From a virus: a stretch of DNA of 64,000 nt. A model generated the notes under the pieces. That model was not told where the DNA came from, searched no databases, and saw only the letters and a program-made list of their open reading frames with translations. How positions within the stretch are numbered: the stretch's first letter is position 1; the number at the start of each line of letters is the position of its first letter. Below, in pieces: positions 45,444-59,285 of this stretch. The stretch lies in the IMG/VR virus record IMGVR_UViG_3300033153_010718, positions 24,839 to 88,838 of that record. One strand, 5' to 3'. Both the position numbers and the translations under genes were made by a program.

Positions 45444-45713
45444 CTACGCCAGCTCCGCGAGCCGATCGATCGCCGAGCGGTGCCTGACGGCGACCAGCTC
45501 GAAGGTCCAGACCTTCTTGGCGGTGTCGTAGATCGAGCCTGCGCTCAGCCAGCAGCGGACCGGGGCATCGTTGGTCACGTCGATACCGACTACCGTGGCC
45601 GGGTGCCAGCCGACGCCACCGCCCCGGAGCGAGGTGTGCACCTCGACGCGGTCTCCGATCTCGTAGGGCGGAAGCTCGAAGGTCTCGTCGTCGATCGTGA
45701 TCGTGCGGCTCAT
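45444..45713 (-). CDS. SRTITI-type SH3-like barrel with AVD tail
   Basis: 89 aa. MSRTITIDDETFELPPYEIGDRVEV, HPATVVGIDV, RCWL, ends RHRSAIDRLAELA. Member of a paralogous set sharing the short N-terminal hairpin, YEIGDRV and ATVVG-[VI] (also at 45710, 45997, 46323, 47745, 51689, 54075, 59031). Confidence 0.8.
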   Translation of the reverse strand: MSRTITIDDETFELPPYEIGDRVEVHTSLRGGGVGWHPATVVGIDVTNDAPVRCWLSAGSIYDTAKKVWTFELVAVRHRSAIDRLAELA

Positions 45714-46000
45714 GCCAGCTCCGCGAGCTGGTCGATGGCTGGCAGGGGCCGGACGGCGGTCAGCGCGAAGTCCCAGACCGTGCGGCCGTCCGCGTCGTCC
45801 AGCCAGCATCGGAGCATGGGAGAGGCGTCGTTGGTGACTGCGATGATGCCGCCGTTGCCGACCGCGCTGACTCCGACGACCGTGGCCCGGCACCAGCCGA
45901 GGTGCGGGATGCCGAGGCCGGCCAAGACCTCGACACGGTCACCGATCTGGTAGGGCGGGACGGGAATGACCCTGTTGCCGATCGTGATCGTGCGGCTCAT
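45710..46000 (-). CDS. SRTITI-type SH3-like barrel with AVD tail
   Basis: 96 aa. VPPYQIGDRVEVLAGL, CRATVVGVSAV, RCWLDD, ends RPLPAIDQLAELA. ATGA-coupled on both sides. Confidence 0.8.
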   Translation of the reverse strand: MSRTITIGNRVIPVPPYQIGDRVEVLAGLGIPHLGWCRATVVGVSAVGNGGIIAVTNDASPMLRCWLDDADGRTVWDFALTAVRPLPAIDQLAELA

Positions 46001-46326
46001 GCCAGCATCGCGAGCTGCTCGACCGCCGGCATGGGCCGGAGCCGGTCGGGCGGCACCGTCTGGACGCGGTCGATGTATCGGTCGCCCACGCCTCGCCCCG
46101 CCACCACGTGCGTGTTGCCGATCGCGACCACGCTGATTCCGCCGCCGCTCCCGTGCACGGGGAGTACGACGCCGACCACCATGGCCGGCGACCAGCCTGT
46201 GACCAGCTGGTCGCACGAGCTGTTACCGGCGTCCTCGAACCATTCGCGGTAGTGAAGCTGCACCCAGTCGCCGACCTCGTAGGGCACCTCGAAGGTCTTG
46301 TCCAGCAGCTTGATCGTGCGGCTCAT
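45997..46326 (-). CDS. SRTITI-type SH3-like barrel with AVD tail
   Basis: 109 aa. VPYEVGDWVQLHYREW, a longer central loop with GSGGG, ends RPMPAVEQLAMLA. Confidence 0.8.
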   Translation of the reverse strand: MSRTIKLLDKTFEVPYEVGDWVQLHYREWFEDAGNSSCDQLVTGWSPAMVVGVVLPVHGSGGGISVVAIGNTHVVAGRGVGDRYIDRVQTVPPDRLRPMPAVEQLAMLA

Positions 46327-46580
46327 GCCAGCTCCCCGAGCCGGTCGATCGCGGACCTCGGCCGAACATCGCGGGGAGCGAGGTCGATCTGCCGTGCTCC
46401 CGGGCCGTCCAGCCAGACGCGGACGTGGTTCAGGGAGACGCCGATGACGACGCCCGGCAGCCAGCCGAGCACCTTGCGCGCGGCGGCGTCGCTGTAAGCG
46501 TGGTGGACCTCAACCTGGGCGCCGAGGTCATAGCCCGGCGCCTCGTAGGTCTCGCCGCGGAGCGTGATCGTGCGGGTCAT
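46323..46580 (-). CDS. SRTITI-type SH3-like barrel with AVD tail
   Basis: 85 aa. APGYDLGAQVEVHHAY, LPGVVIGVSLNHVRVWLDG, ends RPRSAIDRLGELA; the cleanest example of RVWLDG preceding the tail. Confidence 0.8.
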   Translation of the reverse strand: MTRTITLRGETYEAPGYDLGAQVEVHHAYSDAAARKVLGWLPGVVIGVSLNHVRVWLDGPGARQIDLAPRDVRPRSAIDRLGELA

Positions 46581-46798
46581 GGGACCAGGTCCGCCAGCCG
46601 ATCGATCACCGAGCGGGGTCGGATCTCGACCGCGAGGTCACGAGCGTAGACAGTGCAGTACGTGCCGTCGTCGAGCAGAACCTCTGCGCCCAGTCCTGGG
46701 GTCTCGGGGTAGACGTTGCTGATCGTGGCGCGCCGCGGCGGCTGGGGGGCTGGCCACGTGCGGCAGAACCAGACGGGGTCGCCGATCGCGTGGCTCAC
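46577..46798 (-). CDS. SH3-like barrel with AVD tail
   Basis: 73 aa from GTG. IGDPVWFCRTW, PRRATISNVYP, AEVLLDDG, ends RPRSVIDRLADLVP. Confidence 0.79.
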   Translation of the reverse strand: MSHAIGDPVWFCRTWPAPQPPRRATISNVYPETPGLGAEVLLDDGTYCTVYARDLAVEIRPRSVIDRLADLVP

Positions 46799-47031
46799 GA
46801 GACCAGGTCCGCGAGCCGCTCGACAGCCGACAGTGGGTAGACCTGGTCCTCGGCCAAGGTCATCAGGAGATCGTGGGCGAGGTCAGGCCGCACGTGGTAG
46901 TAGCGGCCCTGGTGGTCCGGGTCCAGGCGCTTCATGATCTGGCCGCGGTGCCGGCCGGCCAGCAGGTTGCTGCCGCCGCTGTCCCAGGTCGGGACGTGGA
47001 ACACGACGCGGTCGCCGACCTCGTAGCTCAT
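46795..47031 (-). CDS. SH3-like barrel with AVD tail
   Basis: 78 aa. YEVGDRVVFHVPTW, RGQIMKRLD, YYHVRPD, ends YPLSAVERLADLVS. Confidence 0.79.
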   Translation of the reverse strand: MSYEVGDRVVFHVPTWDSGGSNLLAGRHRGQIMKRLDPDHQGRYYHVRPDLAHDLLMTLAEDQVYPLSAVERLADLVS

Positions 47032-47249
47032 CGCACCAGCTCGCCGAGCTGGTCAATCACGGGCAGGGGGCGGATCTGGTTCCCGGACACGGTCGTCCAG
47101 CGCCCGGTGGCGTTGTCGAGCCGTACCTTGTAGTAGACGTAGCTCCAGCCGCTCCCCAGGACCCGCATGACCGTGGCCCGGAACCAGGCCGGCCGGTTCC
47201 GCCACAGCGTTCGGAACAGGACGCGGTCGCCGACGTAGTAGATCTCCAT
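47028..47249 (-). CDS. SH3-like barrel with AVD tail (array head)
   Basis: 73 aa. YYVGDRVLFRTLWRNRPAWFRATVMRV, YYKVRLDN, ends RPLPVIDQLGELVR. Head of a seven-gene barrel string behind a leaderless-type promoter. Confidence 0.8.
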   Translation of the reverse strand: MEIYYVGDRVLFRTLWRNRPAWFRATVMRVLGSGWSYVYYKVRLDNATGRWTTVSGNQIRPLPVIDQLGELVR

Positions 47250-47255
47250 GCCTAC

Positions 47256-47261
47256 GTTCTA
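47256..47261 (-). promoter_or_regulatory. GGGTAGAAC element, 6 nt from ATG
   Basis: Minus strand CGGGTAGAAC, 6 nt, ATG 47249; its TAG is also the stop of the small membrane protein upstream. Confidence 0.7.
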
Positions 47262-47363
47262 CCCGGGGATGAAGAGGTAGCTGATCCCAACCGCCCAGAT
47301 CGCCGCGACTACGACGGCGAAGACGCAGAGGGCCAACACGTCGCTCTTGGTGTCGGGGTGCAC
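47259..47363 (-). CDS. 34-aa single-pass membrane miniprotein
   Basis: GTG start, then HPDTKSDVLALCVFAVVVAA and IWAVGISYLFIPG: one transmembrane helix with a short polar N-terminus. GAGG lies 6 nt upstream. Holin-accessory or membrane-anchor roles are possible but unsupported. Confidence 0.5.
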   Translation of the reverse strand: MHPDTKSDVLALCVFAVVVAAIWAVGISYLFIPG

Positions 47364-47401
47364 GCCTCGATCTTCGCGCAGCGGAGCCGCGCAGGCCAGG
47401 G

Positions 47402-47407
47402 TAGAAC
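47402..47407 (+). promoter_or_regulatory. GGGTAGAAC promoter element
   Basis: 18-nt spacer containing GGGAG before ATG 47426. Confidence 0.66.
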
Positions 47408-47425
47408 AGCTGGCGGGAGCACACC

Positions 47426-47737
47426 ATGCACGACCGCAAGCTGACGTTCGGCGAGCTGGCAGTCGGCGAGCGGTTCATCTGCTGGCCGTCGTCTGGCGAC
47501 AACTCCGGCCACGGCGGCTACAAGATCGCCATGCGCGTGTTCACCAAGATCTCGCCGGTCAGGCCGGCGCGAGCGCACCTCTACCGCGCCGACTACTTCG
47601 AGAACGGCGCGCGTGAAGGCGACGGCGTCCTCTCGCGCTTCACCGACGGCATGAAGGTCATCAAGCTCTGTCCGCCGGCGGGCGCCCGGGATGCAGTAAC
47701 CCGGCTCGGGCGGCTGGCCGGCTCAGGCCAGCGCTGA
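47426..47737 (+). CDS. Barrel-like protein with AVD tail
   Basis: 103 aa. GELAVGERFICWPSSGDNSGHGGYKIAMRVF and ARAHLYRADYF are strands; GARDAVTRLGRLAGSGQR ends it. Monocistronic plus-strand gene inside a minus array; again the tail has no following coupled gene on its strand. Confidence 0.77.
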   Translation: MHDRKLTFGELAVGERFICWPSSGDNSGHGGYKIAMRVFTKISPVRPARAHLYRADYFENGAREGDGVLSRFTDGMKVIKLCPPAGARDAVTRLGRLAGSGQR

Positions 47738-47744
47738 CCGCGGT

Positions 47745-48050
47745 CTAGTCGCGAACCAGGTCGGCCAGCTGCTCGACCGCGGACATCGGCCTGACCGCGT
47801 CGGCGCTGACGTAGTAGCCGTGCCACGTGTGCAGCTCGCAGTCCGGCAGAACGCACAGGCGCTTGGCGCGCGCCTCGCCGATGTTGACGCCAACGACCGT
47901 GGCAGGCTCCTCGTCGGCAAGACCAACGATCGTGCCCACCGCCGGATCACCGTGGCCGGCGCGGATCGCGACTTCCGTGAGCATGACCACGCGGTCGCCG
48001 ATCTCGTACGGCACCTCCAGCGTCTCCCCGGCGATCCTGACCGTTCGCAT
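47745..48050 (-). CDS. SRTITI-type SH3-like barrel with AVD tail
   Basis: 101 aa. RTVRIAGETLEVPYEIGDRVVML, two ATVVG/GTIVG strands, ends RPMSAVEQLADLVRD. Confidence 0.79.
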   Translation of the reverse strand: MRTVRIAGETLEVPYEIGDRVVMLTEVAIRAGHGDPAVGTIVGLADEEPATVVGVNIGEARAKRLCVLPDCELHTWHGYYVSADAVRPMSAVEQLADLVRD

Positions 48051-48055
48051 GGCGC

Positions 48056-48316
48056 CTAGTCCTTCAGCTCCAGCTTGCGTACAAACACGTAGGACGGCCA
48101 GCTGGCGCCCCGGTCCTCGCGCCGGCACCAGGCGAACACGTCCGGGGCTGGTCCGTGAGGGTAGCTTGGCGGGATCTCGGTGAAACCGCCGCCGCGCTTC
48201 TCGCCCTCGGTCAGCGCTGCCTCGCGCGCCGAAGCCTCGGCCCGTCGCAGTCCGAGCAGCGTGGTGCGCGCGCCACGCTCGTGGAACACGCCGTAGACGT
48301 GGGTCAGCTCAGCCAT
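48056..48316 (-). CDS. Hypothetical protein with LTEG site
   Basis: 86 aa. Strand MAELTHVYGVFHE, helix, AALTEGEKRGGGF (an LxE-type site), then CRREDRGASWPSYVFVRKLELKD. Its start and end look like a small alpha/beta fold. No tail. Confidence 0.7.
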   Translation of the reverse strand: MAELTHVYGVFHERGARTTLLGLRRAEASAREAALTEGEKRGGGFTEIPPSYPHGPAPDVFAWCRREDRGASWPSYVFVRKLELKD

Positions 48317-48569
48317 CCGCGCTCTCCTCTGCTAGTGCGGCCAGCCTACCGACCGCCGAGTCGTCCACCCAGCCCAATGGATCGACGTAGACGGTGGCTC
48401 TGGGGCAGGAGCTGGTCGCCGGTCGCGGCTCCTGTTCGTGGATGCACACGGTGCGCGGTCCGCCGAAGCGGACGCCGCACGAACGAATGTAGGCATCGAC
48501 GGCCAAGGCCAGCTCGTCGCCGGTCAGCCGAATGTACACCAGGCCATCGCCGCGGCGCTCAACATCCAT
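48309..48569 (-). CDS. Alpha/beta small protein with AVD tail
   Basis: 86 aa. GLVYIRLTGDELALAVDAYIRS, then RTVCIHEQE, ends DDSAVGRLAALAEESADG, where Asp of the motif is Gly. Confidence 0.72.
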   Translation of the reverse strand: MDVERRGDGLVYIRLTGDELALAVDAYIRSCGVRFGGPRTVCIHEQEPRPATSSCPRATVYVDPLGWVDDSAVGRLAALAEESADG

Positions 48570-48846
48570 CGGTCGCCTCCGCGAGAGCGGCCAGCGCATC
48601 GACGGCGCTGACCGGTTCCGTGCGCTTGAACCGCGGGTGCCGGTCCACCTGGGAACCGTCGTCCGCCCGTATGCGCGCGGTCCCGTCGTTGAAGACGTAG
48701 CGCACCCAGCCGTAGATCCACGGGTTGTCGTCGTCGTCGTCGGTGACCACGTACCAGCACCCATCCGGTCCGCGCACCCGGTCCCCCGCCTGGAACGGTA
48801 CCGGCGTGTCCTGCTCGCGCCAGCGCACTCGATCGCCCGGCTTCAA
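48559..48846 (-). CDS. Double SH3-like barrel with AVD tail
   Basis: 95 aa from TTG (TTGA overlap). KPGDRVRWREQ then QAGDRVRGPDGCWYVVTD: two GDRV repeats, ends EPVSAVDALAALAEATDGC. D-rich loop DDDDDN. Confidence 0.74.
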   Translation of the reverse strand: MKPGDRVRWREQDTPVPFQAGDRVRGPDGCWYVVTDDDDDNPWIYGWVRYVFNDGTARIRADDGSQVDRHPRFKRTEPVSAVDALAALAEATDGC

Positions 48847-49076
48847 CTGAACGCCGCCCAGCCGCACGAGCAGGCCCTGGTGCCGCGCATGATCCCACCG
48901 CCCGTGCGGGCGAACGTCGGTCGCCCGCACCGGGGGCACGGGGCGCTTGAGGAGCGTCGGCGTCGGCGAGGCTTGGGCTGGTGATGGTGGCAGTAGCGCC
49001 CGTGGACCAGGCGTCGGCAGCGCCGACCTGAGCCGGCGGCGGTGCCCGCGCATTGGGTCGGGAGCTGGGTCCTCAT
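48843..49076 (-). CDS. Basic Cys/His-rich zinc protein
   Basis: 77 aa. CAGTAAGSGRRC, RYCHHHQPKPRRRRR, CPRCGRP and CSC: one or two zinc sites embedded in a very basic chain. Likely nucleic-acid contact. Confidence 0.68.
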   Translation of the reverse strand: MRTQLPTQCAGTAAGSGRRCRRLVHGRYCHHHQPKPRRRRRSSSAPCPRCGRPTFARTGGGIMRGTRACSCGWAAFS

Positions 49077-49219
49077 GACCACCAACCCGCCCACGCGCCG
49101 AGCATCGAGAACAGGACGAGAGCCAGAAGACAGCCGCCGCAGCAGCCGAAGCCGATGACCGTCGTCGCCCGCTCGTCGTCGCTCGACTCAGGCGGGGTAC
49201 CGTCGGGCTGCTCGCTCAC
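49073..49219 (-). CDS. 48-aa Cys-rich membrane miniprotein
   Basis: GTG start (GTGA overlap with the gene at 49216), acidic N-terminus (EQPDGTPPESSDDE), then CCGGCLLALVLFSMLGAWAGWW, one membrane helix with a Cys cluster that could be acylated. Confidence 0.6.
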   Translation of the reverse strand: MSEQPDGTPPESSDDERATTVIGFGCCGGCLLALVLFSMLGAWAGWWS

Positions 49220-50073
49220 CGTCGCGCACCGTGCAGCGCCCGCTTCTTCTCGCGGTTCTCCCTGTAGATCTTGAGCATACCGTTGGCCGACTCCAGGTCG
49301 ATCTTCAGCCGGTCCCGCTCCAGGGTGAGCTGCCGGATCTCCTCATCGCGCGGGTCCTTGAGCGCGCCGTCGTTGTTGAACCGCTCCAGCCCGGCCGTCG
49401 CGCCGTCCCAGCCGTCCGCGCCTTCGTGCGTCATGCGCAGGCTGCGGTAGAGCGTGACGAGCGAGATCGGCCGCGCGGCGAGCCAGTCTGCGCGCGCCTC
49501 GTATGACCGGAGTCGGCCCTCCGCTGCAGCCGTGTTCGGCGTGACGACGCCCGACCGCGCGAGCGCGATCAGTGCCGCCTTGAGGTCGTCCTTGATCGTC
49601 CGGCGTCGATCGTTGGCGTAGGACATGCCGCCCATCGCGTGCACGAACACCTTGCCGTGCGCGTCGGGCAGCACCTCGCGAGTCCAGAACGCGCACTCGA
49701 CGAGGTCGTCCCAGACCATCTGGAACAGCTTGTTGAACGACGTGGGCTTCGTCGGGCTCAAGTAGCGCAGCGCCAGCGCCTGTAGGGCGCCTTTGGGCTC
49801 GTACTGGATCTCCCAGCTGCGCTTCGGGCCTGCGGGCAGCTTGGCCGGCGGCTTAGCGGCCCTCTTCTTCTTCTTCTTCGTGGCCTTCTCGGCGGCCTTC
49901 TTCCTCTTCTTCGCCAGCAAGAACGCTTGGTGCTTCTTGCAGTTCTTGCACGTGACGTCGCCCACGACCGTCGTCGAGTTCATGGCGTACGCGTTGGCGC
50001 ATCCGAACACCATCGGCACCGTCGCCGACTTGTAGTGCACCTTCAGTCCGTTCGGCCTTCCAGTGATGCTCAT
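49216..50073 (-). CDS. Modular protein: zinc knuckle, Lys-rich linker, helical domain, coiled coil
   Basis: 285 aa. VTCKNCKKHQAF (about 40-51) is the knuckle shared with 33961; a KKRKKAAEKATKKKKK linker; an alpha-helical domain of about 120 residues with TIKDDLKAALIALARSGVV, winged-helix-like; and a coiled coil EEIRQLTLERDRLKIDLESANGML at the end. Looks like a DNA- or RNA-binding factor. No tail. Confidence 0.75.
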   Translation of the reverse strand: MSITGRPNGLKVHYKSATVPMVFGCANAYAMNSTTVVGDVTCKNCKKHQAFLLAKKRKKAAEKATKKKKKRAAKPPAKLPAGPKRSWEIQYEPKGALQALALRYLSPTKPTSFNKLFQMVWDDLVECAFWTREVLPDAHGKVFVHAMGGMSYANDRRRTIKDDLKAALIALARSGVVTPNTAAAEGRLRSYEARADWLAARPISLVTLYRSLRMTHEGADGWDGATAGLERFNNDGALKDPRDEEIRQLTLERDRLKIDLESANGMLKIYRENREKKRALHGARR

Positions 50074-50074
50074 G

Positions 50075-50374
50075 CTATTCCTTCTCTCGTGCCAGATCGC
50101 CCAGCCGCTCGATCGCGTCCATCGGCCGGACGTCGATCACGCCGCAGGTAAAGCTGCGCTTCGGCAGAGCGTCCAGCACGATGCGCAGAAGCTGGTGTGG
50201 AGGCTTGATCAGGTCAATGCCGATGATGGTGGCCGGTCCGCCTATCGCCGACGCCGGTCGCCCATCGCCCATGCGCGGCATGAATATGCGCTTGTTGGTC
50301 AGGACCACGCGTTCGAGTAGCGCGACGAGAGGCAGCTCGTAGAGATTGCCTTGGACCGTGACCGCGCGCGACAT
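50075..50374 (-). CDS. SH3-like barrel with AVD tail
   Basis: 99 aa. SRAVTVQGNLYELP hairpin, GGPATIIGIDLIKPP, RIVLDAL, ends VRPMDAIERLGDLAREKE. Confidence 0.78.
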   Translation of the reverse strand: MSRAVTVQGNLYELPLVALLERVVLTNKRIFMPRMGDGRPASAIGGPATIIGIDLIKPPHQLLRIVLDALPKRSFTCGVIDVRPMDAIERLGDLAREKE

Positions 50375-50376
50375 CT

Positions 50377-50613
50377 TCACGCCACATCGCCCAGCTGATC
50401 GATCGCCGACTCGGGGCTCGCCCACGGGCCGCGCGTGGCCGGCGGCACGAACGTCAGCCCGCTCGGGCTTCCGGTGTCGGTGCTCACCTCCAGCAACCAG
50501 CCGTGCCCGATCCACGTCCGGTGGATGCAGCCATCGCCATCGGATGCGATCTGCTCCCAGTCCTTGCTGTCGATCCAAGGTGGCGGGCGCGGTGGCGTCG
50601 CCGGTATGGTCAC
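50377..50613 (-). CDS. Small protein with AVD tail
   Basis: 78 aa from GTG. WIDSKDWEQIASDGDGCIHRTWIGHGWLLEVS, ends SPESAIDQLGDVA. Beta-rich, no family. Confidence 0.74.
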   Translation of the reverse strand: MTIPATPPRPPPWIDSKDWEQIASDGDGCIHRTWIGHGWLLEVSTDTGSPSGLTFVPPATRGPWASPESAIDQLGDVA

Positions 50614-50777
50614 CCGCGGCACCTGAGCTGGAGCCCGAGCAGGACCAGCGCAACGCCAGTCGTGAAGAACGAGATGTGCGCGTCTCTGAACTGACCGCCC
50701 ACCGTGTAGCAGCAGATGAGCAACCAGCCGAGGCCGAGCAGCGGATAGACGGCCGGGTTGCGCCGCTCGTCGCTCAT
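50610..50777 (-). CDS. 55-aa two-helix membrane protein
   Basis: YPLLGLGWLLICCYTVGG and FFTTGVALVLLGLQL are two membrane helices with a short hydrophilic turn. ATGA/GTGA coupled. Size and topology fit a holin- or spanin-accessory, unproven. Confidence 0.63.
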   Translation of the reverse strand: MSDERRNPAVYPLLGLGWLLICCYTVGGQFRDAHISFFTTGVALVLLGLQLRCRG

Positions 50778-51250
50778 TCCGACCACCGCTCCAGGCCGCC
50801 GATGACCGCGCTGATCCGAGCGAGGTCGGCCTGCCCAGCCGCGACGACGTTGCGGATGGCCTCTTCGGCAGTGTCCCCGTGCTCTGCCCACCGGCCGCCG
50901 GACGAGTCAGGGTCGCCCAAGTACGCCGAGTAGTAGTCCGGCACCAGCTCGGCCAGCTGGTCGATGATGTCCGCCTCTTCGTCGGCGCGGCGCCAGTCCT
51001 CGTGCAGCTTGATCCGGCCACACGGCGAGACGACGTTGTAGTGCCAGCCCATGTTCTCGTGCACTCGGATCGTCCAGCCCTTGCCCATGCGCTTGGCGAG
51101 CGCGTTAGCCCGGCGCTTGGCGAGCTTGTACGCGGCCCAGGTGCAGTCGGCGCCGCACGCCGGCGCGCAGTAGATCTTGCCCTTGCGCCTGGCCTTCCAG
51201 GAGAGCTTCTTGGGCTTGGTCTTCTTCGGCCTGGTCTTCGTCGCTGGCAT
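50774..51250 (-). CDS. Basic Cys protein with internal AVD motif
   Basis: 158 aa. KTRPKKTKPKKLSWKARRKGK, then CAPACGADC, a helix-strand middle (WTIRVHENMGWHYNVV), EADIIDQLAELVPDYY at about residue 92, and a C-terminal helix RISAVIGGLERWSE. SAV-x-GL is a second echo of the motif. Confidence 0.74.
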   Translation of the reverse strand: MPATKTRPKKTKPKKLSWKARRKGKIYCAPACGADCTWAAYKLAKRRANALAKRMGKGWTIRVHENMGWHYNVVSPCGRIKLHEDWRRADEEADIIDQLAELVPDYYSAYLGDPDSSGGRWAEHGDTAEEAIRNVVAAGQADLARISAVIGGLERWSE

Positions 51251-51275
51251 GGTCTCGCGTCCCTTCGCTCTCTTG

Positions 51276-51281
51276 GTTCTA
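51276..51281 (-). promoter_or_regulatory. GGGGGTAGAAC promoter element
   Basis: Minus strand GGGGGTAGAAC, 25-nt leader containing GAAGGGA, ATG 51250. Confidence 0.64.
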
Positions 51282-51362
51282 CCCCCGTCGCTGGCTGGCG
51301 GATTTGAAATCAGGGGTAAATCTCAGAAATCACACTTGGTTCGGGGACAGACGACGCCCTAG

Positions 51363-51381
51363 TGATCAGGAGACCTGATCA
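51363..51381 (+). promoter_or_regulatory. Hairpin enclosing the Shine-Dalgarno
   Basis: TGATCAGG pairs with CCTGATCA around AGA; the stem ends on the A of ATG 51381 and GGAG is partly in the stem. Ribosome access would need melting or binding of a factor. Confidence 0.6.
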
Positions 51382-51581: not shown

Positions 51582-51688
51582 GCGAGGGTTGGCCGGGGCA
51601 GGGGCTGCCAGTCCCCGGTGGCGGCCGTTGGCTTGGTCCACCCGAGCACGACCCCGGCTTCACCCTCTCAGGTACCTGTCTCTACGTT

Positions 51689-51943
51689 CTACCCCGGTGC
51701 CAGCTCCGCGAGCTGGTCAATCACCGAGAGCGGCGCGACGTCCTCGACACCGCAGTGCCAGGCGCCAAGCCACGGGCCCGTGTCGAACCAGACGCACAGG
51801 CGGCGGTAGCGGTCGCCGGCGACGATGTTGACGCCAACGACCGTGGCCAGCGCCGCCTTGCCGTTGTGCGTCGCCATCACCCGGTCGCCGATCTCGAACG
51901 GCGGCACCCCGAACTCTCTCCCGCGAATCGTGACCGTCTTCAT
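51689..51943 (-). CDS. SRTITI-type SH3-like barrel with AVD tail
   Basis: 84 aa. KTVTIRGREFGVPPFEIGDRVMA, LATVVGVNIVAG, LCVWFDTG, ends APLSVIDQLAELAPG. Its TAG stop is part of a GGGGTAGAAC element that has no start codon 6-7 nt away, perhaps a relic of a lost downstream gene. Confidence 0.79.
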   Translation of the reverse strand: MKTVTIRGREFGVPPFEIGDRVMATHNGKAALATVVGVNIVAGDRYRRLCVWFDTGPWLGAWHCGVEDVAPLSVIDQLAELAPG

Positions 51944-52245
51944 CTGTCCAGCCTCCCGAGCCGCGAGACGGCATCGGGCGCGAAGTCGCCGCGCGCCACG
52001 GTGACCACGCCACGGCCACGACCGCCGCACTTGGGGCACGGCGCCACGGTGACGGTCAAGTAGCCGCGGCGCTCCAGCGCGCGCATGGTCGCGGGGAGGG
52101 TGTGAACCCAATCGCAACAGCCGCCAGCTGGGAAGTATTCCTCGTCCCGCCCCGAGCCCTCCAGCCCGGCGTTGGCCATCTTCTGCCACTTGGCGATCCG
52201 CCCGGCGGCTACCCGCATGGACTGCGAGAGCTGCTGAACGCTCAC
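51940..52245 (-). CDS. Zinc-knuckle protein with AVD tail, paralogue of 54326
   Basis: 101 aa from GTG. LPATMRALERRGYLTVT and CPKCGGRGRG, ends FAPDAVSRLGRLDR. The gene at 54326 shares the helix ARALERRGIVTIT and FHPDAISRLGAL but lacks the Cys. Confidence 0.75.
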   Translation of the reverse strand: MSVQQLSQSMRVAAGRIAKWQKMANAGLEGSGRDEEYFPAGGCCDWVHTLPATMRALERRGYLTVTVAPCPKCGGRGRGVVTVARGDFAPDAVSRLGRLDR

Positions 52246-53022: not shown

Positions 53023-53096
53023 CCCCGACCGCGGCAGAGCGGGCCGACCGCCGCCCCGCCAGAGGACAAAGGCCGTTAGTAATCCCGCACGCGGGG

Positions 53097-53102
53097 TAGA
53101 AC
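53097..53102 (+). promoter_or_regulatory. GGGGTAGAAC element, 6 nt from ATG
   Basis: GCGGGGTAGAAC, 6 nt, ATG 53109; intergenic and divergent from the element at 53017. Confidence 0.72.
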
Positions 53103-53108
53103 GAGGGC

Positions 53109-53609: not shown

Positions 53610-53959
53610 CCAACCTCGACTACTGCAAGCTCGGCTGCTGCTCTTGCGCGAAGTGCTCCGAGTGCGAGCAGCCCGTGCACGGACACGCCACCGGTCCCGC
53701 GAAGCACGAGGACGGCGAGTGCCCCGACTGGATGGACGTGCCGATGCCGTTCGCGTTCCCGCTCCAGTGCGCGAACGGACGTTGGGAAACGAACGAGCAG
53801 GGGGGCAAGGTAAAGCGCGGGTGCACCGTAATGGGGATGCACGGCGGCCCGTTCCCCAAGACGCCGCGCCAGTACGTCAAGGAAGCCGAGGAGATGGGCT
53901 GGACCTGCGAGCTGATCGGCAAGAAGGCGAAGTTCACCTGCAAGAAGTGCCAGGCATGA
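53606..53959 (+). CDS. Cys-rich zinc protein
   Basis: 117 aa. CCSCAKCSECEQPVHGH cluster, a central loop, and CKKC at the end. At least two metal sites. ATGA into the next gene. Confidence 0.75.
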   Translation: MTNLDYCKLGCCSCAKCSECEQPVHGHATGPAKHEDGECPDWMDVPMPFAFPLQCANGRWETNEQGGKVKRGCTVMGMHGGPFPKTPRQYVKEAEEMGWTCELIGKKAKFTCKKCQA

Positions 53960-54078
53960 GCGAAATCGACGAGCGCATCGAACGCCTGCTCGCCGCCGCC
54001 GAGCGCCTGGAGCGGCGCGCGGCCGAGATCCCCGCGTGGCAGAAGGGGACCATCGTGTTCGCAGAGCTGGACCAATGA
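53956..54078 (+). CDS. 40-aa coiled-coil miniprotein
   Basis: ERIERLLAAAERLERRAAE is a heptad-like helix, then GTIVFAEL. ATGA-linked on both sides. Possibly an oligomerisation partner. Confidence 0.58.
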   Translation: MSEIDERIERLLAAAERLERRAAEIPAWQKGTIVFAELDQ

Positions 54079-54329
54079 GCCGCACGCCGCGCACGGTTCG
54101 CCTGCTCGGAGTGGACATGCCGGTCCCGTACTACGAGATCGGCGAGCGCGTCGAGGTGCGCAGCTACCAGGGGTGGACGCCGGCCCTGGTCATCGGCATC
54201 AACCTCCTACCGACGATACGCGACCAGCACCTGAGCATCCTGCTCGATGGCCGGGTCACGCCTATGGGCGTGCCCATGAGTGCCGTGAGACCACTGTCCG
54301 CCGTTGAACAGCTGGCGGGGCTGGCATGA
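54075..54329 (+). CDS. SRTITI-type SH3-like barrel with AVD tail
   Basis: 84 aa. RTVRLLGVDMPVPYYEIGERVEV, TPALVIGINLL, LSILLDG, ends RPLSAVEQLAGLA. Confidence 0.79.
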   Translation: MSRTPRTVRLLGVDMPVPYYEIGERVEVRSYQGWTPALVIGINLLPTIRDQHLSILLDGRVTPMGVPMSAVRPLSAVEQLAGLA

Positions 54330-54574
54330 GCACCAAGCTCTCGCCGGCCATGCAGCGGGCCATCGACTTCCTGCCGCAGTTCTTCGACCACCAGCCCTAC
54401 CCGGCGGTCGTCGGCCTCGACATCATCGAGAGCACTGCGCGCGCCCTGGAGCGCCGCGGGATCGTCACGATCACCTACCAGCAGCTGGCCGCGTCCCGCC
54501 GGCCCGTCATCCGCCCCGAGAACTTCCACCCGGACGCCATCTCGCGCCTGGGCGCGCTGTCGGAGCGGACATGA
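54326..54574 (+). CDS. Helical protein with AVD tail
   Basis: 82 aa. IESTARALERRGIVTITYQ is a winged-helix-like segment; ends FHPDAISRLGALSERT. Paralogue of 51940. Confidence 0.75.
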   Translation: MSTKLSPAMQRAIDFLPQFFDHQPYPAVVGLDIIESTARALERRGIVTITYQQLAASRRPVIRPENFHPDAISRLGALSERT

Positions 54575-55239
54575 AAGCCGCCCGCTCGTCGGTGGACCAG
54601 CTAGCCGACATCGGCCGACGCGAGATCGCAATCGCCGCGCTGCTCGCCCGCGTGAAGACCGGCGAGCTGACCAGGGAACGGCTAGAGCTGGCCGCCTACC
54701 TGGGCGACCCGATCGCGCGCGGGGCGCTCGGTAACGTCATCGACCGCGAACGCGACTCTCTCGACGTCTGGTGCCAAGAGTTCCGCCGCCTGGCCACCGC
54801 TTGCGGGTTCGAGTGGATGGCGGCCATGCGGGCTTCGCTGGCCGCGGCGCACGAGGTGTTCGATGCGTGGCACGACTCACCTGCCCGCGACTGCGGCTGC
54901 CCGGCTGACCCCGGCATCCACGGGTGCATACCGCAGCCCGAGACCGTGAGGGACGTCTCGCGCGTACTGGACGCTGCCGAGTGCTACGCCGACGAACCAA
55001 GCAGAGTGGCCGAGAGAGTGTGGAGCAACGCCTGCAACCAACTGGAGTACGAGGATCTGTCCGAGTGGTTGCCGGTGCCCTACGTCAACGCGCGGCGCTA
55101 CATGACAGACGTCGTGTCGTCTGCTGACCTGGCCTACGAGCCGCACGTGCGCTTGGCCATTCGGAAGGATCTTGTGCCGTGGGTGCTCAACGCCTGGGTG
55201 GGCCCAGGATTCGAGATCAGGGGTAGAACAGGACCATGA
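54571..55239 (+). CDS. Conserved helical protein with N-terminal AVD motif
   Basis: 222 aa. ARSSVDQLADIGRRE at residues 4-18, then ARVKTGELTRERLELAAYLGDP, then Cys patches and EWLPVPYVNARRYM. Same architecture as 29471, but with the motif added at the front: a clear gain of the module in one paralogue. Confidence 0.78.
   Translation: MKAARSSVDQLADIGRREIAIAALLARVKTGELTRERLELAAYLGDPIARGALGNVIDRERDSLDVWCQEFRRLATACGFEWMAAMRASLAAAHEVFDAWHDSPARDCGCPADPGIHGCIPQPETVRDVSRVLDAAECYADEPSRVAERVWSNACNQLEYEDLSEWLPVPYVNARRYMTDVVSSADLAYEPHVRLAIRKDLVPWVLNAWVGPGFEIRGRTGP
55224..55229 (+). promoter_or_regulatory. GGGGTAGAAC element, 6 nt from ATG
   Basis: TTCGAGATCAGGGGTAGAAC, 6 nt, ATG 55236; upstream bases match the TTTGAAATCAGGGGTA at 51303. 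Confidence 0.7.
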
Positions 55240-55427
55240 GACTCTCGACCGCGGATCGCGGACTCACTCACCTCATCGTTCGCAGAGACCACATCCTCTG
55301 CACGATCTGCAAGACGGCCATACCGATCCACCCCGGCGACGGGACTCCTTTGGGCTCCTACCTGATGGCGCTCAAGGGGGCGATACTCGGCCACCCCGTC
55401 AAAGAGCACACATGCCCAAGGCCCTGA
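55236..55427 (+). CDS. Small Cys protein
   Basis: 63 aa. LCTICKTAIPIHPGD (CxxC, strand) and a final HTCPRP; one zinc site with an insert. ATG 55236. Confidence 0.72.
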   Translation: MRLSTADRGLTHLIVRRDHILCTICKTAIPIHPGDGTPLGSYLMALKGAILGHPVKEHTCPRP

Positions 55428-55831
55428 CCGAAGGCATGAAGTACAGCCTGCGCAAGCTGTCCAAGGCCGACCCGAAGAGAGGCCGCACCGCGCGCGGCAT
55501 GGGCGCGAAGTCATCGATTGCCCAAGCGCTAGTGCACCGCGGCCTCGCCGAACGCTCCTGCCTGGACGGCGACCGCGACACCTACTGGATCACCGCGAAG
55601 GGGCGCAAGGCGGCCAACGCCCTGCTCGGGATCGGCGAGCGCTGGGAGCAAGGCATCCCCCACGATCCGCGCTCGGAGGAGATCATCAGGGCCATGGCCA
55701 AGATCGACTTCGAGGAATGCGACGACTCGTTGCAGATCAACGTCGGCGGCGACGGGGACAACGGCGAGACGATGATGTACATCCTCGACTGCTACTTCGC
55801 CCGGCGCGACTGCGAGGGGGGATCCGGTTGA
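55412..55831 (+). CDS. Winged-helix-like protein
   Basis: 139 aa. SLRKLSKADPKRGRT, then SIAQALVHRGLAERSCLDGDRDTYWITAKGRKA reads as helix, helix, wing. An acidic C-terminal part follows. Possible regulator. Confidence 0.72.
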   Translation: MPKALTEGMKYSLRKLSKADPKRGRTARGMGAKSSIAQALVHRGLAERSCLDGDRDTYWITAKGRKAANALLGIGERWEQGIPHDPRSEEIIRAMAKIDFEECDDSLQINVGGDGDNGETMMYILDCYFARRDCEGGSG

Positions 55832-56469
55832 GCGACACCTCCCTCAAGCGCGCCATGCTCCAGTTCTGCGCCGGCGGCGCGTCCGGGTTCTCGGTCGATG
55901 AGCTGGAGCGGATCGCCGACGCGGCCCGGGGCACGCGCCAGGCAAAGGAGAATGCCGACAAGACGCGCGAGGCCGAGGCCGACGCCGAAGAAGCGCAGCG
56001 CCACATGGGCAAAGGCTGGACACACGTCCGCCTCGTGCTCAACAAGCGCGACGAGGACACAACCTTGTGGGAGTACCCGGTCACGGTCGCCCTCTTCGCC
56101 CCGCCGCGCGGTTACCTGCTGCACGTCTTCGAGGGCCCGACCGAGCACGGGACTGCCCAAGCGCTCTGCGGAGAACTGCGAAGCGCGACGCTGGAGCACG
56201 TGCGCGACACCTTCGTGGCGGTGACCGCGCCGGTGCGCCGTCTCGGCCGTGGGCGCTACGGCTTTGGCCTGAACTTCTGCGAAGCCTGCGTTCGCAGCCG
56301 CGCGCCCTACACGCTGCGCTGGCTCCCGCCGCAGCCGAAACCGGTTGATGACTTCCTCGCGCGGCAAGCGGCAGCGGCCGACCCGGACTGCGACATCTGC
56401 GATGGCGTCGGACTCGTCGGCGATGACGGTACAGCGTGCGCGTGCGTTCGGATGAGGAGCAGCTCGTGA
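55828..56469 (+). CDS. Hypothetical protein with coiled coil and zinc pair
   Basis: 213 aa from TTG (TTGA overlap). Coiled coil (KENADKTREAEADAEEAQR), a beta domain, then CEAC and CDICDG...CAC at the end. No tail. Confidence 0.73.
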   Translation: MSDTSLKRAMLQFCAGGASGFSVDELERIADAARGTRQAKENADKTREAEADAEEAQRHMGKGWTHVRLVLNKRDEDTTLWEYPVTVALFAPPRGYLLHVFEGPTEHGTAQALCGELRSATLEHVRDTFVAVTAPVRRLGRGRYGFGLNFCEACVRSRAPYTLRWLPPQPKPVDDFLARQAAAADPDCDICDGVGLVGDDGTACACVRMRSSS

Positions 56470-56753
56470 GTTACTTCTGGGAGCACGGCGGCGACCTGTC
56501 GCGTCCGCCCGAGCAGAACGAGCTGAAGCGCCGTCGCCCTTGGGGCGACTACTGGGAATCGGGCGCGCCGAACGCGGAGACGGCCCTGGAACTCTTCTGG
56601 CTCAAGTGGCATCGCAAGACCGGCAAGGAGTACCCGCGCACGCCGCCCAAGGGCAAGGCGGCACCGGCCGTCGGGTTCGTCGGCAACCGGGTGAGCGTAT
56701 CCCGGCGGCCCGATCACCACGGCGAGAAGAAGAAACAGGACGCGAACGAATGA
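56466..56753 (+). CDS. Hypothetical protein
   Basis: 95 aa from GTG (GTGA overlap). Trp/Arg-rich centre (RRPWGDYWES, ELFWLKWHRKTG) and a basic end. Unknown. Confidence 0.7.
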   Translation: MSYFWEHGGDLSRPPEQNELKRRRPWGDYWESGAPNAETALELFWLKWHRKTGKEYPRTPPKGKAAPAVGFVGNRVSVSRRPDHHGEKKKQDANE

Positions 56754-57079
56754 CGCCCAAGCAGCAGCTCGTAATCGAGGAGCTGGCGACTGGCGCTGTC
56801 CTGCACCCGCCGAACTACACCTTCTACGCGACCGGGTTCCTGACCAGCGCGTCCGACACGTGGAAGAACAGATCGAGGGCAGCGCAGCGCATCGCGGACA
56901 CGACGCGAGATGCCATTCGTCAGCGGCTCTGCGCCCTGTGCCGGCCAGGCGCGCGCCTGTCGGACGTGGTCTTCGTCCACCCGGCCACCGTAAGCGCCCG
57001 CCTCGCCGCGGGCTGGGTCAAGGCTCACCACACCGATCGCGACGTGAAGCGCTACGAAGAAGCGCGGCGGGAATCGTGA
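56750..57079 (+). CDS. Helical protein
   Basis: 109 aa. Helices with a CALCRPG pair and basic ends. Unknown; ATGA coupled. Confidence 0.72.
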   Translation: MTPKQQLVIEELATGAVLHPPNYTFYATGFLTSASDTWKNRSRAAQRIADTTRDAIRQRLCALCRPGARLSDVVFVHPATVSARLAAGWVKAHHTDRDVKRYEEARRES

Positions 57080-57252
57080 ACGCTAACCAAGTGGCCGCAG
57101 AAGCGCTGGGCGTGGCCCACCAACAGGTCCAAGCCCGCAAGCTGCTCGGGTATCCAGCTGCTGTGCTCACCCTGCAAGAGCTGCTGGCGCACGCTTGGCT
57201 GTGCGGCGCCATCGACGTGCTCACGGCGCAGGCCAAGGCGCCCCAGCCGTGA
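57076..57252 (+). CDS. 58-aa helical miniprotein
   Basis: GTG start. NQVAAEALGVAHQQVQARKLLGYP is helix-turn-helix-like, then a hydrophobic helix. Could bind DNA; unproven. Confidence 0.62.
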   Translation: MNANQVAAEALGVAHQQVQARKLLGYPAAVLTLQELLAHAWLCGAIDVLTAQAKAPQP

Positions 57253-57494
57253 CCGCACTAAAGGCCGGTCTCATGTGGTCTACGCGCCACCGCACGGATC
57301 GGAAGACGCACGTCTACCTGAATGACGCGTCCGTCAATCCGATCTGCAACGCGCCGGGCGCAGACCGGCTTCTGTGGGACGCGGACGAGGCGACCGAGAC
57401 GCCGGCCGAGCTGATAGAACGAATCGAGCGCACCGACGCGGACCGGCTCGTCTGCCGGACGTGCCTGCGATCACTGAAGGCGCGGTTGCGATGA
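57249..57494 (+). CDS. Knuckle-ended small protein
   Basis: 81 aa from GTG. HVYLNDASVNPICN and CRTCLRSLKARLR; relative of 57945, 58268 and 58534 by the C-terminal C-x-TC helix, but it has lost the tail. Confidence 0.7.
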   Translation: MTALKAGLMWSTRHRTDRKTHVYLNDASVNPICNAPGADRLLWDADEATETPAELIERIERTDADRLVCRTCLRSLKARLR

Positions 57495-57640
57495 CCACAA
57501 GCGAACGGTGGGGCGGATTCAGCAAGCGGGGCATGGGGAAGCTCAGGCTGGGCTGGTGGCGCCTGCTACTGCCGGCGGTCGCGGCCCTGCTGATCCTTGC
57601 GATAGCTGCCATCGTGAATGCGGTCTGGCCATGCACCTGA
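57491..57640 (+). CDS. 49-aa single-pass membrane protein
   Basis: Basic, Trp-rich N-terminus, then LLLPAVAALLILAIAAIVNAV. N-in topology by the positive-inside rule. Confidence 0.64.
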   Translation: MTTSERWGGFSKRGMGKLRLGWWRLLLPAVAALLILAIAAIVNAVWPCT

Positions 57641-57948
57641 TCACCTTCGGGAACCGCACGCTGTCGCTGCGCCAGTGGAGTCAAGAGACCGGCATCAACG
57701 TAAGCACGCTCTACTCGCGCGTGAAGGCCGGCTATTCGGCCAAGGAGCTACTCGACCCGAACTCTGGGCGGCGTCGCCAGCTGGCCGCGCTCGCCGAGGG
57801 GCGCGTTGCGTCCGAGAAGCTGCTGACCTGCGGCGGCGAGACCATGACGATGGCCGAGTGGGCGCGGCAGACCGGCATCCAGAAGCGAACGATCCGCGAG
57901 CGGTTGCGCGCCGGCTGGACGGTAGAGAAAGCGCTCGGTCGCGCGTGA
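57631..57948 (+). CDS. Double HTH protein
   Basis: 105 aa. Two tandem units: LSLRQWSQETGINVSTLYSRV...SAKELLDP and MTMAEWARQTGIQKRTIRERL...VEKALGRA. Each is a short HTH common beside HNH endonucleases and phage regulators. Paralogue of 43756. Confidence 0.82.
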   Translation: MHLITFGNRTLSLRQWSQETGINVSTLYSRVKAGYSAKELLDPNSGRRRQLAALAEGRVASEKLLTCGGETMTMAEWARQTGIQKRTIRERLRAGWTVEKALGRA

Positions 57949-58271
57949 GCGTCCTGACCGTCACGGTACGGCGATCCGACCACGCCATCGTGGACGCGTG
58001 CCCGAGGTCATGGGATGGCCCTGTGGTGATGAGCCTGCGCCTGCCGGACGACGACCACGTTCACGTCGGCAAGCGGCACGTCTCTTCCCGCCTCTACGAA
58101 AACCGCTTCTCTTCACTGTGCGGCAAGTTCTGGCGCGGCATCTGGGGATTCCCCACCAACATCGAGCCAGCTGTCCGAACGCTCGCGGAATGCAATGACC
58201 CCTGCCCGACCTGCGCGGAGAAGCTGGCCGAGCTGCGCGATCCGATCACGCGCTTGGGGGACCTGGCATGA
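57945..58271 (+). CDS. Cys-knuckle protein with DPITRLGDLA tail
   Basis: 108 aa. Beta strands with HVHVGKRHVSSRL, then CNDPCPTCAEKLAELRDPITRLGDLA. First of three tandem paralogues whose knuckle runs straight into the tail. Confidence 0.77.
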   Translation: MSVLTVTVRRSDHAIVDACPRSWDGPVVMSLRLPDDDHVHVGKRHVSSRLYENRFSSLCGKFWRGIWGFPTNIEPAVRTLAECNDPCPTCAEKLAELRDPITRLGDLA

Positions 58272-58537
58272 CCGCGCCGTGCGAGGACACGAAAGTCACG
58301 TTGGGCTACCTGCAACCAGACCACCATAGGCTGCACGTAGGCCAGTGGCAGCACGGCGTGGGGAACGTCGCGTTGTGCAAGCGCTACCCCATCGAGGGGA
58401 CCTGGGGCTCGCCCGTCACTCCCAAGGTGGCGTGGCGCAACATGCAGCAGCGCAGCACGCGACCGGTCTGCGCGACCTGCCGCGACCTGCTCGTCGCCAT
58501 GCTCGACCCGGTCACCAGACTCGGGAACCTGACGTGA
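58268..58537 (+). CDS. Cys-knuckle protein with DPVTRLGNLT tail
   Basis: 89 aa. HHRLHVGQWQHG, VALCKRY, PVCATCRDLLVAMLDPVTRLGNLT. Confidence 0.77.
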   Translation: MTAPCEDTKVTLGYLQPDHHRLHVGQWQHGVGNVALCKRYPIEGTWGSPVTPKVAWRNMQQRSTRPVCATCRDLLVAMLDPVTRLGNLT

Positions 58538-58812
58538 ACGTCGCGCTGGGCATCCCCTTCCGCTACAGCGAGGACGACGCGAGCCTGCACGCGGGCTTGC
58601 GTACACAGGGCGGCTACGTGGCGCTCTGCAACGACATGGACGAGATCGACTTGCGTTACGGCGGCTGGGGCACCTGGGCAGCCGAGATCTCCGTCGAGGT
58701 GGCGGCGCGACGACTGCGCGAAGCCGATGAGGCGAGGCCGATCTGCCGGACCTGCCTCGCGCGCCTGCAAGACCTGCGCGATCCGGTCACGCGGCTGGGC
58801 GAGCTGTCATGA
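58534..58812 (+). CDS. Cys-knuckle protein with DPVTRLGELS tail
   Basis: 92 aa from GTG. DASLHAGLRTQGG, VALCNDM, RPICRTCLARLQDLRDPVTRLGELS. Third of the tandem set. Confidence 0.77.
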   Translation: MNVALGIPFRYSEDDASLHAGLRTQGGYVALCNDMDEIDLRYGGWGTWAAEISVEVAARRLREADEARPICRTCLARLQDLRDPVTRLGELS

Positions 58813-59012
58813 ACCGGCCACCGCGCGACCGCTACAACGACTGGCGAGCCAACACGGCAGCGCACGTACCCGGGCCGCCCTCGGCCGTAGAACGCCTGGC
58901 CGCTCTCGAAGATCCTGTGATCGCAGCGCGCATCAAGGCGTGGGACGAGCACGTCAACTTCGGAAGCCTGTACCGCGCCGAGTTCCCGCAGCGGCGCACC
59001 GGCCAGCGCTGA
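58809..59012 (+). CDS. SAVDxLAALxDPxG-family protein D
   Basis: 67 aa. PPSAVERLAALEDPVIAARIKAWDEH in the middle, like the three tandem minus-strand genes at 30755-31517; GSLYRAEF at the end. Confidence 0.75.
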   Translation: MNRPPRDRYNDWRANTAAHVPGPPSAVERLAALEDPVIAARIKAWDEHVNFGSLYRAEFPQRRTGQR

Positions 59013-59018
59013 CCAGGG

Positions 59019-59024
59019 TAGAAC
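59019..59024 (+). promoter_or_regulatory. GGGTAGAAC element, 6 nt from ATG
   Basis: AGGGTAGAAC, 6 nt, ATG 59031; just downstream of the previous stop, not inside coding sequence. Confidence 0.7.
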
Positions 59025-59030
59025 ACACGC

Positions 59031-59285
59031 ATGAACCGCACGATCGACATCGACGGCGAGCCTCACGAGATACCGCCGTACGCGTTGGGCGACCGCGTGC
59101 TGTACCACGGCCGACCGGCCACGATCGTCGGCGTCAACCTGCTCGGGCTGTCGGCGCAGCGGTTGCGCGTCTGGCTCGACGCCAATCGACGGGGAGCGCG
59201 GCCCTACTCCAACGGCTTCACCTGCAGCATCGAATCGGTCGCGCCCATGCCGGCGGTGGACCAGCTCGGGAGCCTGGCGACATGA
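59031..59285 (+). CDS. SRTITI-type SH3-like barrel with AVD tail
   Basis: 84 aa. RTIDIDGEPHEIPPYALGDRVLY, ATIVGVNLLG, LRVWLDAN, ends APMPAVDQLGSLAT. Confidence 0.79.
   Translation: MNRTIDIDGEPHEIPPYALGDRVLYHGRPATIVGVNLLGLSAQRLRVWLDANRRGARPYSNGFTCSIESVAPMPAVDQLGSLAT

Follow-up and report, generated by a model that had tools for sequence, protein, structure and literature searches.

The capsid targeting sequence (CTS) of phage T4 is N-terminal, and Rickettsia palindromic elements are DNA repeats. Among other described systems, the internal proteins of T-even phages have only the CTS in common, according to the available part of the published account (PMC3012670); the accessible text of a second report describes the cargo of bacterial microcompartments (BMC) as having common short helices of about 18 residues that condense it (PMC12339742); and for the nucleus-forming jumbo phages, the portion of a third that could be consulted states that no conserved import signal sequence was found (PMC11087766). 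Here we describe a peptide of 9-10 residues, referred to below as the tag, that recurs on about 100 otherwise different proteins of a virus with T4-like head genes. The sequence analysed, the window, is a stretch of 64,000 nucleotides (positions 24,839 to 88,838) of the 120,043-base-pair IMG/VR record IMGVR_UViG_3300033153_010718, and the tag was followed up from the interval 45444-59285, where it ends a family of predicted SH3-like barrels. Coordinates are those of the window unless the record is named.

Results

The tag has the form [SPD]-[AVP]-[IV]-[DETS]-x-L-[AG]-x-[LVI], and all nine barrels end in it. Gene models, 266 for the whole record, were made with a simple codon-usage caller, not a published one, which missed at least one tagged gene (14462-14698) and shortened another (58809-59012). 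A 10-column profile of the tag was trained on the record, with the threshold set at the score passed by 0.1% of shuffled proteins. Over this threshold lie 115 of the 266 gene models, an in-sample count, compared with 0.27 expected from shuffles and none of 266 reversed proteins; the window contributes 67 of its 155 models, and the interval 45444-59285 contributes 23 of 43. Most tags (93/115) end at most 12 residues from the C-terminus, with 1 to more than 12 residues standing after the tag, while internal copies exist and two tags (g046 and g157) start in the first 10 residues. In the window, a strict pattern searched in all six frames matched mainly where open frames end. Scanning the whole record in six frames gave 98 C-terminal matches, 92 in called gene frames and 6 outside them, and none was found in first-order Markov sequences.

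When the tag was masked, BLAST at E < 0.01 grouped the tagged proteins into 99 clusters, of which the nine barrels form the largest; because BLAST is not sensitive, the real number of families is probably below 99. By size, the tag is present on 111 of 236 proteins of up to 200 aa and on 4 of the 30 larger ones. The record encodes a T4-like major head protein, a maturation protease and a portal, and none of the 23 gene models in its first 20 kb, which include these genes, is tagged, suggesting that the tag is probably used inside the cell.

The capsid protein of the record retrieved six IMG/VR contigs at 74-80% identity, and the DNA pattern of the motif occurred in at least 117 stretches across IMG/VR. 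In a C-terminal scan of the collected loci, many tags were present only in contig G002 and in the 275-kb contig G007, whose capsid protein is 81% identical to that of the record. Tagged gene models in the relatives numbered 120 of 405 in G007, 49 of 207 in G002, 24 of 85 in G005, 16 of 87 in G008, 3 of 52 in G001 and 3 of 18 in G003. When 111 of the 120 tagged G007 proteins were aligned, hardly any consensus emerged apart from S-A-V-D-x-L-G-x-L. A stricter, stop-anchored pattern, which matches at 4 places in the window, returned two stretches from IMG/VR without the own record, both in G007, and two from GTDB genome contigs, each with a single match (L166, L167); on the basis of this narrower pattern, the tag as a set was not found outside related contigs in the collections scanned. 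In LR756511 (595 kb), the named record nearest by capsid, none of the 52 gene models in 41 kb was tagged. The tag thus appears, as far as searched, to be a feature of this phage clade, and titles and abstracts of open-access papers yielded no description of such a tag.

The tag is selected as a peptide, since its DNA is little more alike than the peptide needs and its ratio of nonsynonymous to synonymous substitution rates (dN/dS) is half or less of that of the rest. The best-match identity of tag DNA over 30 bases was 23.15, compared with 22.89 (standard deviation 0.15) expected from peptide and codon usage, and in two other records it was 22.92 versus 22.70 (0.15) and 22.02 versus 21.78 (0.23); a single tag pair reached 28 of 30 identical bases. 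Among 34 orthologue pairs the dN/dS was 0.19 for tags, 0.46 for flanks and 0.40 for bodies, and among 28 pairs it was 0.25, 0.66 and 0.66, with similar synonymous divergence in each case. Orthologue pairs with both members tagged, as against one, numbered 36 versus 6 for G002-G007, 29 versus 6 for G000-G007 and 7 versus 3 for G000-G002. The variety of codons in the tag is about that found elsewhere in the genome, with moderate shifts for Val, Ser and Arg. The last Leu is CTG in 76% of tags as against 51% in the genome and Gly leans to GGG/GGA, a bias that leans towards the ribosome-binding site of the next gene.

The two presumptive cap columns (1 and 4, counted from 0) covary: in the own record S/P/T was combined with D/E in 68 tags, D/N with T/S in 28, D/N with D/E in 5 and S/P/T with T/S in none, and the corresponding out-of-sample numbers for G007 were 72, 25, 12 and 0. 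The Fisher values for this covariation (3e-20 and 7e-16) are overstated, since the sequences are related; the split of cap residues persists with one member per body cluster, and a regular expression that left both cap positions free showed the same covariation at C-termini (98 own-record cases). The position after the invariant Leu is taken by Ala or Gly in 114 of 115 tags and by Ser in the remaining one, which favours close packing. A helix is present at the tag in two AlphaFold2 models, those of the barrel g129 and of the SNase homologue G007_316, and the tag is predicted to be a short, N-capped amphipathic helix.

Copies of the tag also occur within enzymes of G007. The PolA of this contig (Pfam DNA_pol_A; an intein and an exonuclease domain are also present) has two copies in the exonuclease region; the first, DPVTRLGDV, faces an 8-residue gap in G008 (L164), where the aligned pieces are 77-91% identical, and the second is common to both contigs. 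In the SNase homologue (PF00565), the insert is present in G007 and G003 and absent from G002, G005 and the own record, although the flanks are 80% identical between G007 and G002/G005; its model has a short helix at residues 91-96. The HNH protein of G007 carries a degenerate tag ahead of its first domain and none ahead of its second. Other nameable tagged proteins of this contig are an SF2 helicase, an RNase H and a zinc-finger protein; G007 also encodes RecA, thymidine kinase, UDG, a beta clamp and a class II ribonucleotide reductase. Two Pfam set scans covered 63 of the 125 G007 proteins of 190 aa or more. A sequence search of the PDB with the SNase and HNH proteins gave nothing at E <= 0.001, and PADLOC, run on 111 of the 120 tagged G007 proteins, matched nothing beyond a homing endonuclease, an SNase-like model and, weakly, a third. 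As a separate observation, replication-region proteins of G007 (L149-L151, 1-60 kb) contain TROVE/Ro60-type and VWA/metallopeptidase-like domains.

The initial annotation had described an expansion of at least eight SRTITI-type paralogues in the interval 45444-59285, and this family is real, with nine full-length members. On the minus strand these are g128 (SRTITI; 45444-45713, tag RSAIDRLAEL at 45450-45479), g129, the member modelled (45710-46000, LPAIDQLAEL, 45716-45745), g130 (45997-46326, MPAVEQLAML, 46003-46032), g131 (46323-46580, RSAIDRLGEL, 46329-46358), g137 (47745-48050, MSAVEQLADL, 47757-47786), g142 (50075-50380, MDAIERLGDL, 50093-50122) and g147 (51689-51943, LSVIDQLAEL, 51701-51730), and on the plus strand g155 (54075-54329, LSAVEQLAGL, 54294-54323) and g170 (59031-59285, MPAVDQLGSL, 59247-59276). 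An iterated profile, built with the C-terminal tags stripped, found exactly these nine proteins in the own record and, in a relative, G007_142 (E < 0.005). A simple protein search with g129 as query hit 8 places in the own record, counting itself, one of which was the short g134. The aligned members share an R-T-[IV] hairpin, G-D-R-V, A-T-V-V-G and R-P-x-[SP]-[AV]-[IV]-[DE]. The last conserved block, P-x-S-A-[VI]-[DE]-x-L-[AG]-x-L, which had not been set apart from the barrels earlier, does not belong to their family and recurs on about 100 own-record proteins with other bodies. The suggestion that the barrels present their tail agrees with the C-terminal tag of all nine, but the tag is no property of the barrel, and most tagged proteins lie outside the family. 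That further barrels lack the first hairpin is plausible and the case is weak, since about 20 more proteins match only at E 0.005-1; most of these carry G-D-R-V.

In the AlphaFold2 model of g129 (16-sequence alignment; mean predicted local distance difference test score 80), a hairpin comes first, then a barrel and finally a helix at residues 88-95. Among solved structures, Tudor, chromo-barrel and PWWP domains come closest to this model (best Z 9.0, root-mean-square deviation 2.2 over 68 residues); Foldseek gave a best E of 0.03 with none at 0.001. Pfam Agenet matches were weak (E 0.05 and 0.09, 14.5 and 13.7 bits against a gathering cut-off of 27). A scan of viral contigs with the barrel profile landed on the tag itself, giving 37 stretches and no relative by tblastn. 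As far as one model goes, a Tudor/chromo-barrel SH3-like fold is supported as the prediction for the SRTITI barrels, in keeping with the earlier assumption of one fold. We infer that these barrels are one expanded payload family bearing the tag.

The remaining tagged genes of the interval include, on the minus strand, the short g132 (46577-46798, tag RSVIDRLADL at 46586-46615), which is GD-x-V barrel-like by a weak assignment, the short barrel-like g133 (46795-47031, LSAVERLADL, 46804-46833; profile E 0.03) and g134 (47028-47249, LPVIDQLGEL, 47037-47066; E 0.08), and the barrel-like g140 (48559-48867, VSAVDALAAL, 48583-48612; E 0.17). Other bodies are found in g136 (47426-47737, plus strand, RDAVTRLGRL at 47687-47716, of the D..T subtype), in g139 (48309-48569, DSAVGRLAAL, 48333-48362), g143 (50377-50613, ESAIDQLGDV, 50383-50412) and g148 (51940-52218, PDAVSRLGRL, 51949-51978) on the minus strand, and in g156 (54326-54574, plus strand, PDAISRLGAL, 54530-54559), which clusters with g148. 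The 158-aa g145 (50774-51250, minus strand) has an internal tag, ADIIDQLAEL (50945-50974), and its orthologue G007_202 is tagged too; the 222-aa g157 (54571-55239, plus strand) has its N-terminal tag, RSSVDQLADI, at 54583-54612. Three Cys-containing paralogues follow on the plus strand, g166 (58023-58271, RDPITRLGDL, 58236-58265), g167 (58268-58537, LDPVTRLGNL, 58502-58531) and g168 (58534-58812, RDPVTRLGEL, 58777-58806), and then a 67-aa open reading frame (58809-59012, plus strand; g169 is its 3' part), in which the internal tag PSAVERLAAL is followed by a further conserved stretch.

Elsewhere in the window, tags on the minus strand are carried by g030 (ESAVDLLGRL, 2688-2717), g034 (ASAVDELAEI, 4567-4596), g040 (RSAVDMLGEL, 10629-10658), g041 (TSAVERLARL, 10874-10903), g045 (VSVIDALAAL, 12350-12379) and g046, here N-terminally (KSAVDRLAHL, 13066-13095). 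The series continues with g047 (RSAVDQLGDL, 13124-13153), g048 (WSAVDRLARV, 13324-13353), g049 (RSAVDRLADL, 13635-13664), g050 (ISAVDLLGDV, 13883-13912), g051 (ASAVDLLGGL, 14217-14246), g052 (LGVVDKLGEL, 14704-14733), g053 (LQAVDALGSL, 14946-14975), g054 (APAVDQLAEL, 15343-15372), g055 (EPAVVQLANI, 15561-15590), g056 (EPAIDRLARL, 15760-15789), g057 (ESVVVQLAAI, 15986-16015), g058 (RSAIDLLGEL, 16188-16217), g059 (PSVVELLAKL, 16479-16508), g060 (MSAVDLLAEV, 17051-17080), g061 (MDAVTALAMV, 17511-17540), g062 (RSAVDRLADL, 17879-17908), g063 (LDAVTLLGEV, 18192-18221) and g064 (LPAVDRLADL, 18434-18463). The gene missed by the caller, also on this strand (14462-14698), is G-D-R-V barrel-like and ends in the tag VSVVDQLGELVS. 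Internally, g042 has GDPITMLADL (11344-11373, minus strand), present in G007_297 and G002_137 too, while the weak match VAVVEQLAEI in the 1305-aa g036 (6017-6046, minus strand) is found in none of its orthologues and may be due to chance.

On the plus strand, tags are present in g068 (MSAVEQLGDL, 20173-20202), g069 (KDAVTKLGNV, 20373-20402), g070 (LSAIDRLGDL, 20597-20626), g071 (LNAIELLGEL, 20824-20853), g076 (VDVVTRLAEL, 22150-22179), g077, which has a CxxCxGxG-like body (PDVVTQLGKV, 22449-22478), g078 (KDAVTRLGEA, 22730-22759), g080 (VSAVDALAEL, 23400-23429), g082 (DDAVTLLGWV, 23757-23786), g088 (GSAVDRLGDL, 26144-26173) and the short barrel-like g124 (LSAVELLAEL, 42176-42205). Internal matches on this strand occur in g084 (DGAVNQLGEL, 24484-24513) and, weakly, in g079 (DDVVSALAQL, 22972-23001) and g085 (DDPVSRLASV, 24855-24884).

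Two variant forms of the tag were observed. An extended form, E-P-S-A-V-[DE]-x-L-A-A-L with a conserved D-P...W-x-E stretch after it, occurs in g100-g102 (30755-31517) and at 58809-59012, about 35 residues ahead of the C-terminus, and is also frequent in G002 and G007; on the minus strand it comprises g100 (PSAVDQLAAL, 30863-30892, 35 aa before the end), g101 (PSAVDRLAAL, 31117-31146) and g102 (PSAVDRLAAL, 31431-31460), and it is perhaps a two-helix version of the tag. Five tandem small genes, g110-g114 (34619-35756), end in Y-[IV]-[EK]-[QK]-P-A-V-[LIV]-A-L-[AS]-[ED]-L, a variant that lacks the acidic cap residue, and g114 alone passes the profile (KPAVVALAEL, 35451-35480, minus strand).

Several observations concern other features. 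An N-terminal motif, M-S-L-[YF]-[DE]-R-[VIL], often then E-[AG], occurs on proteins none of which is tagged: g037 (9178-9672), g007 (record 11185-11412), g008 (record 11416-11775) and g250 (record 113810-114727), and in the relatives G007_094, G003_003, G008_049, G002_094 and G002_117. We take this motif to resemble a CTS. The portal gene g005 (record 5703-10415, outside the window) is enlarged to 1570 aa and matches helicase, recombinase and HNH models, as expected from inteins or other inserts, and g027 (457-1815) encodes a 452-aa protein with a Nudix hydrolase domain. Pfam and PHROG searches with ten window proteins gave no family with a convincing score, and a Foldseek comparison with viral models gave nothing at E <= 0.001.

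Discussion

A selected helix on many unrelated bodies, at their ends or in their loops, with a small residue on its apolar face, looks like a motif for docking to one partner. We therefore propose the tag as a candidate docking motif for one common receptor, a proposal drawn from sequence for which we judge the chances to be about even. The tag would label some 100 otherwise different, mostly small, non-virion proteins of a clade of large T4-like phages, usually at the C-terminus and less commonly internally or at the N-terminus, and its apolar face (V/I, L, the obligatory Gly/Ala and L) would pack tightly into a groove of that receptor. Tagged proteins, including DNA polymerase, helicase and nucleases, would in this way be brought together in the infected cell at a single site or in one complex, with the place where phage DNA is handled as the likeliest. 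The replication site is the first guess because the nameable tagged proteins handle nucleic acids, and any given destination is less likely than docking itself. A bolder version is a proteome-wide address system, in which one phage-made receptor would read a nine-residue helix that between a quarter and nearly half of the genes had gained independently, at termini and in enzyme loops, and would so gather replication enzymes and small orphans into one compartment, condensate or complex; this we put forward tentatively, as possible and rather doubtful.

Several points weigh against docking and its proposed destination. The count of 115 of 266 is in-sample, as the profile was trained on the own record, and 13 of 900 control gene models, from non-relative loci picked for a tag-like DNA pattern, also pass (1 C-terminal, 12 not), so that some internal matches are surely chance or native helices. 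Clear cases of insertion are few, namely SNase and PolA; that of the HNH protein, in which the last Leu is missing, is weaker, and the DnaB-like G007_039 was rejected as an insert case since it aligns to its orthologue without a gap. The nameable tagged proteins are a small and biased sample from which to guess a destination, and RecA, the clamp and a methylase, all in the scanned G007 set, are not among them. Many tagged bodies are barrel-like, and some tagged proteins may have inherited the tag from a common ancestor. Finally, a selected helix could serve another purpose.

An unlikely alternative is that the tag helices bundle with one another and thereby condense the tagged proteins together, with no separate receptor needed, in the manner of BMC encapsulation peptides. 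A short amphipathic helix of which almost every copy has Gly/Ala at one packing position would suit such self-association, and the accessible text on the BMC encapsulation peptides presents them as short helices that give trimeric bundles and condensates (PMC12339742), but the 9-10 residues of the tag are about half of the 18 reported there, and neither a linker nor a bundle is in evidence. It is also improbable that an ancestral small barrel had the helix and that the tagged genes are its diverged or recombined offspring, with the helix packing on its own body. This would account for the tags on nearly all of the 31 barrel-profile matches (E < 1) and for the confident helix in the barrel model; however, the PolA and SNase tags are small inserts missing from close orthologues, and the tag is kept better than the body, contrary to expectation for a helix whose sole role is to pack on a fast-changing body.

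Less probable still is a second virion-packaging signal, by which the tagged proteins would form an injected arsenal like the T4 internal proteins. The phage has a T4-like capsid and a maturation protease, and the T-even internal proteins are, in the available part of their description, diverse defence proteins sharing only the CTS (PMC3012670). Nonetheless, few copies of the tag are N-terminal, PolA and a helicase are among its carriers, and a separate, CTS-like N-terminal motif apparently sits on other, untagged proteins. A turnover tag that clears small early proteins would fit a hydrophobic, mostly C-terminal peptide on small proteins, but it is very improbable given the variable number of residues after the tag, which leaves no fixed C-terminal end, and the internal and N-terminal copies. 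The weakest reading, a by-product of gene packing in which the end of a gene doubles as the ribosome-binding site and start of its successor, is in agreement with the CTG and GGG/GGA bias and with a same-strand gene within 8 bases of 74 of the 93 C-terminally tagged genes, but it is largely refuted and retains hardly any likelihood, since 19 of the 93 have no such neighbour, copies exist internally and N-terminally, the other codons are much like those of the genome and the cap residues covary.

Three known kinds of element were tried as candidates and rejected. The beta-clamp binding motif is of the QLxLF type, with a conserved Gln and L-x-L/F spacing; in the tag, Gln stands at that column in 28 of 115 and the conserved Leu are three apart, even though G007 does encode a beta clamp. 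An ssrA-like degron has a fixed free C-terminal end, which is not kept here, and internal copies occur. A mobile in-frame DNA repeat is at odds with the little or no excess of DNA identity over peptide and codon usage in the three records.

To return to docking, the majority of small genes in large phages are orphans for which nothing points to a function, and about 100 here carry one selected peptide, so that a common role could be tested by a single binding or localisation experiment. Should the tag prove to be an address label, phage proteins of the infection phase would have a linear sorting signal of the kind that was sought and not found in nucleus-forming phages according to the consulted portion of PMC11087766, and a ready tag to send proteins to a phage structure would be at hand.

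Among known systems, the Tudor and chromo-barrel SH3-like domains have the fold predicted for the SRTITI barrels, which differ in lacking a significant sequence match to a known family. The T4 CTS resembles the tag in being a short peptide on many diverse phage proteins, and both phages have a T4-like head; unlike the tag, it leads into the prohead core, whereas the tag is mostly C-terminal, with just 2 of 115 copies in the first 10 residues, and is found on far more proteins, including replication enzymes. The BMC encapsulation peptides are likewise short amphipathic helices at the terminus of functionally different cargo, but, as far as the accessible account describes them, they have about 18 residues, a disordered linker and shell proteins, whereas the tag has 9-10 residues and is also found in loops. 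The nucleus-forming jumbo phages would be alike in the phage-encoded sorting of many proteins, including DNA enzymes; no conserved signal for their import was found, in the part of the literature available, whereas here an explicit motif is present in a phage with T4-like head genes. Rickettsia palindromic elements are similar in that a short peptide is gained inside many genes, whereas here the peptide alone is conserved and not the DNA. By the features tested, the tag fits neither the CTS nor the BMC peptides nor jumbo-phage import; as far as the open-access titles and abstracts go, a proteome-wide tag of this kind in a phage would be new, while the idea of short targeting tags is itself old.

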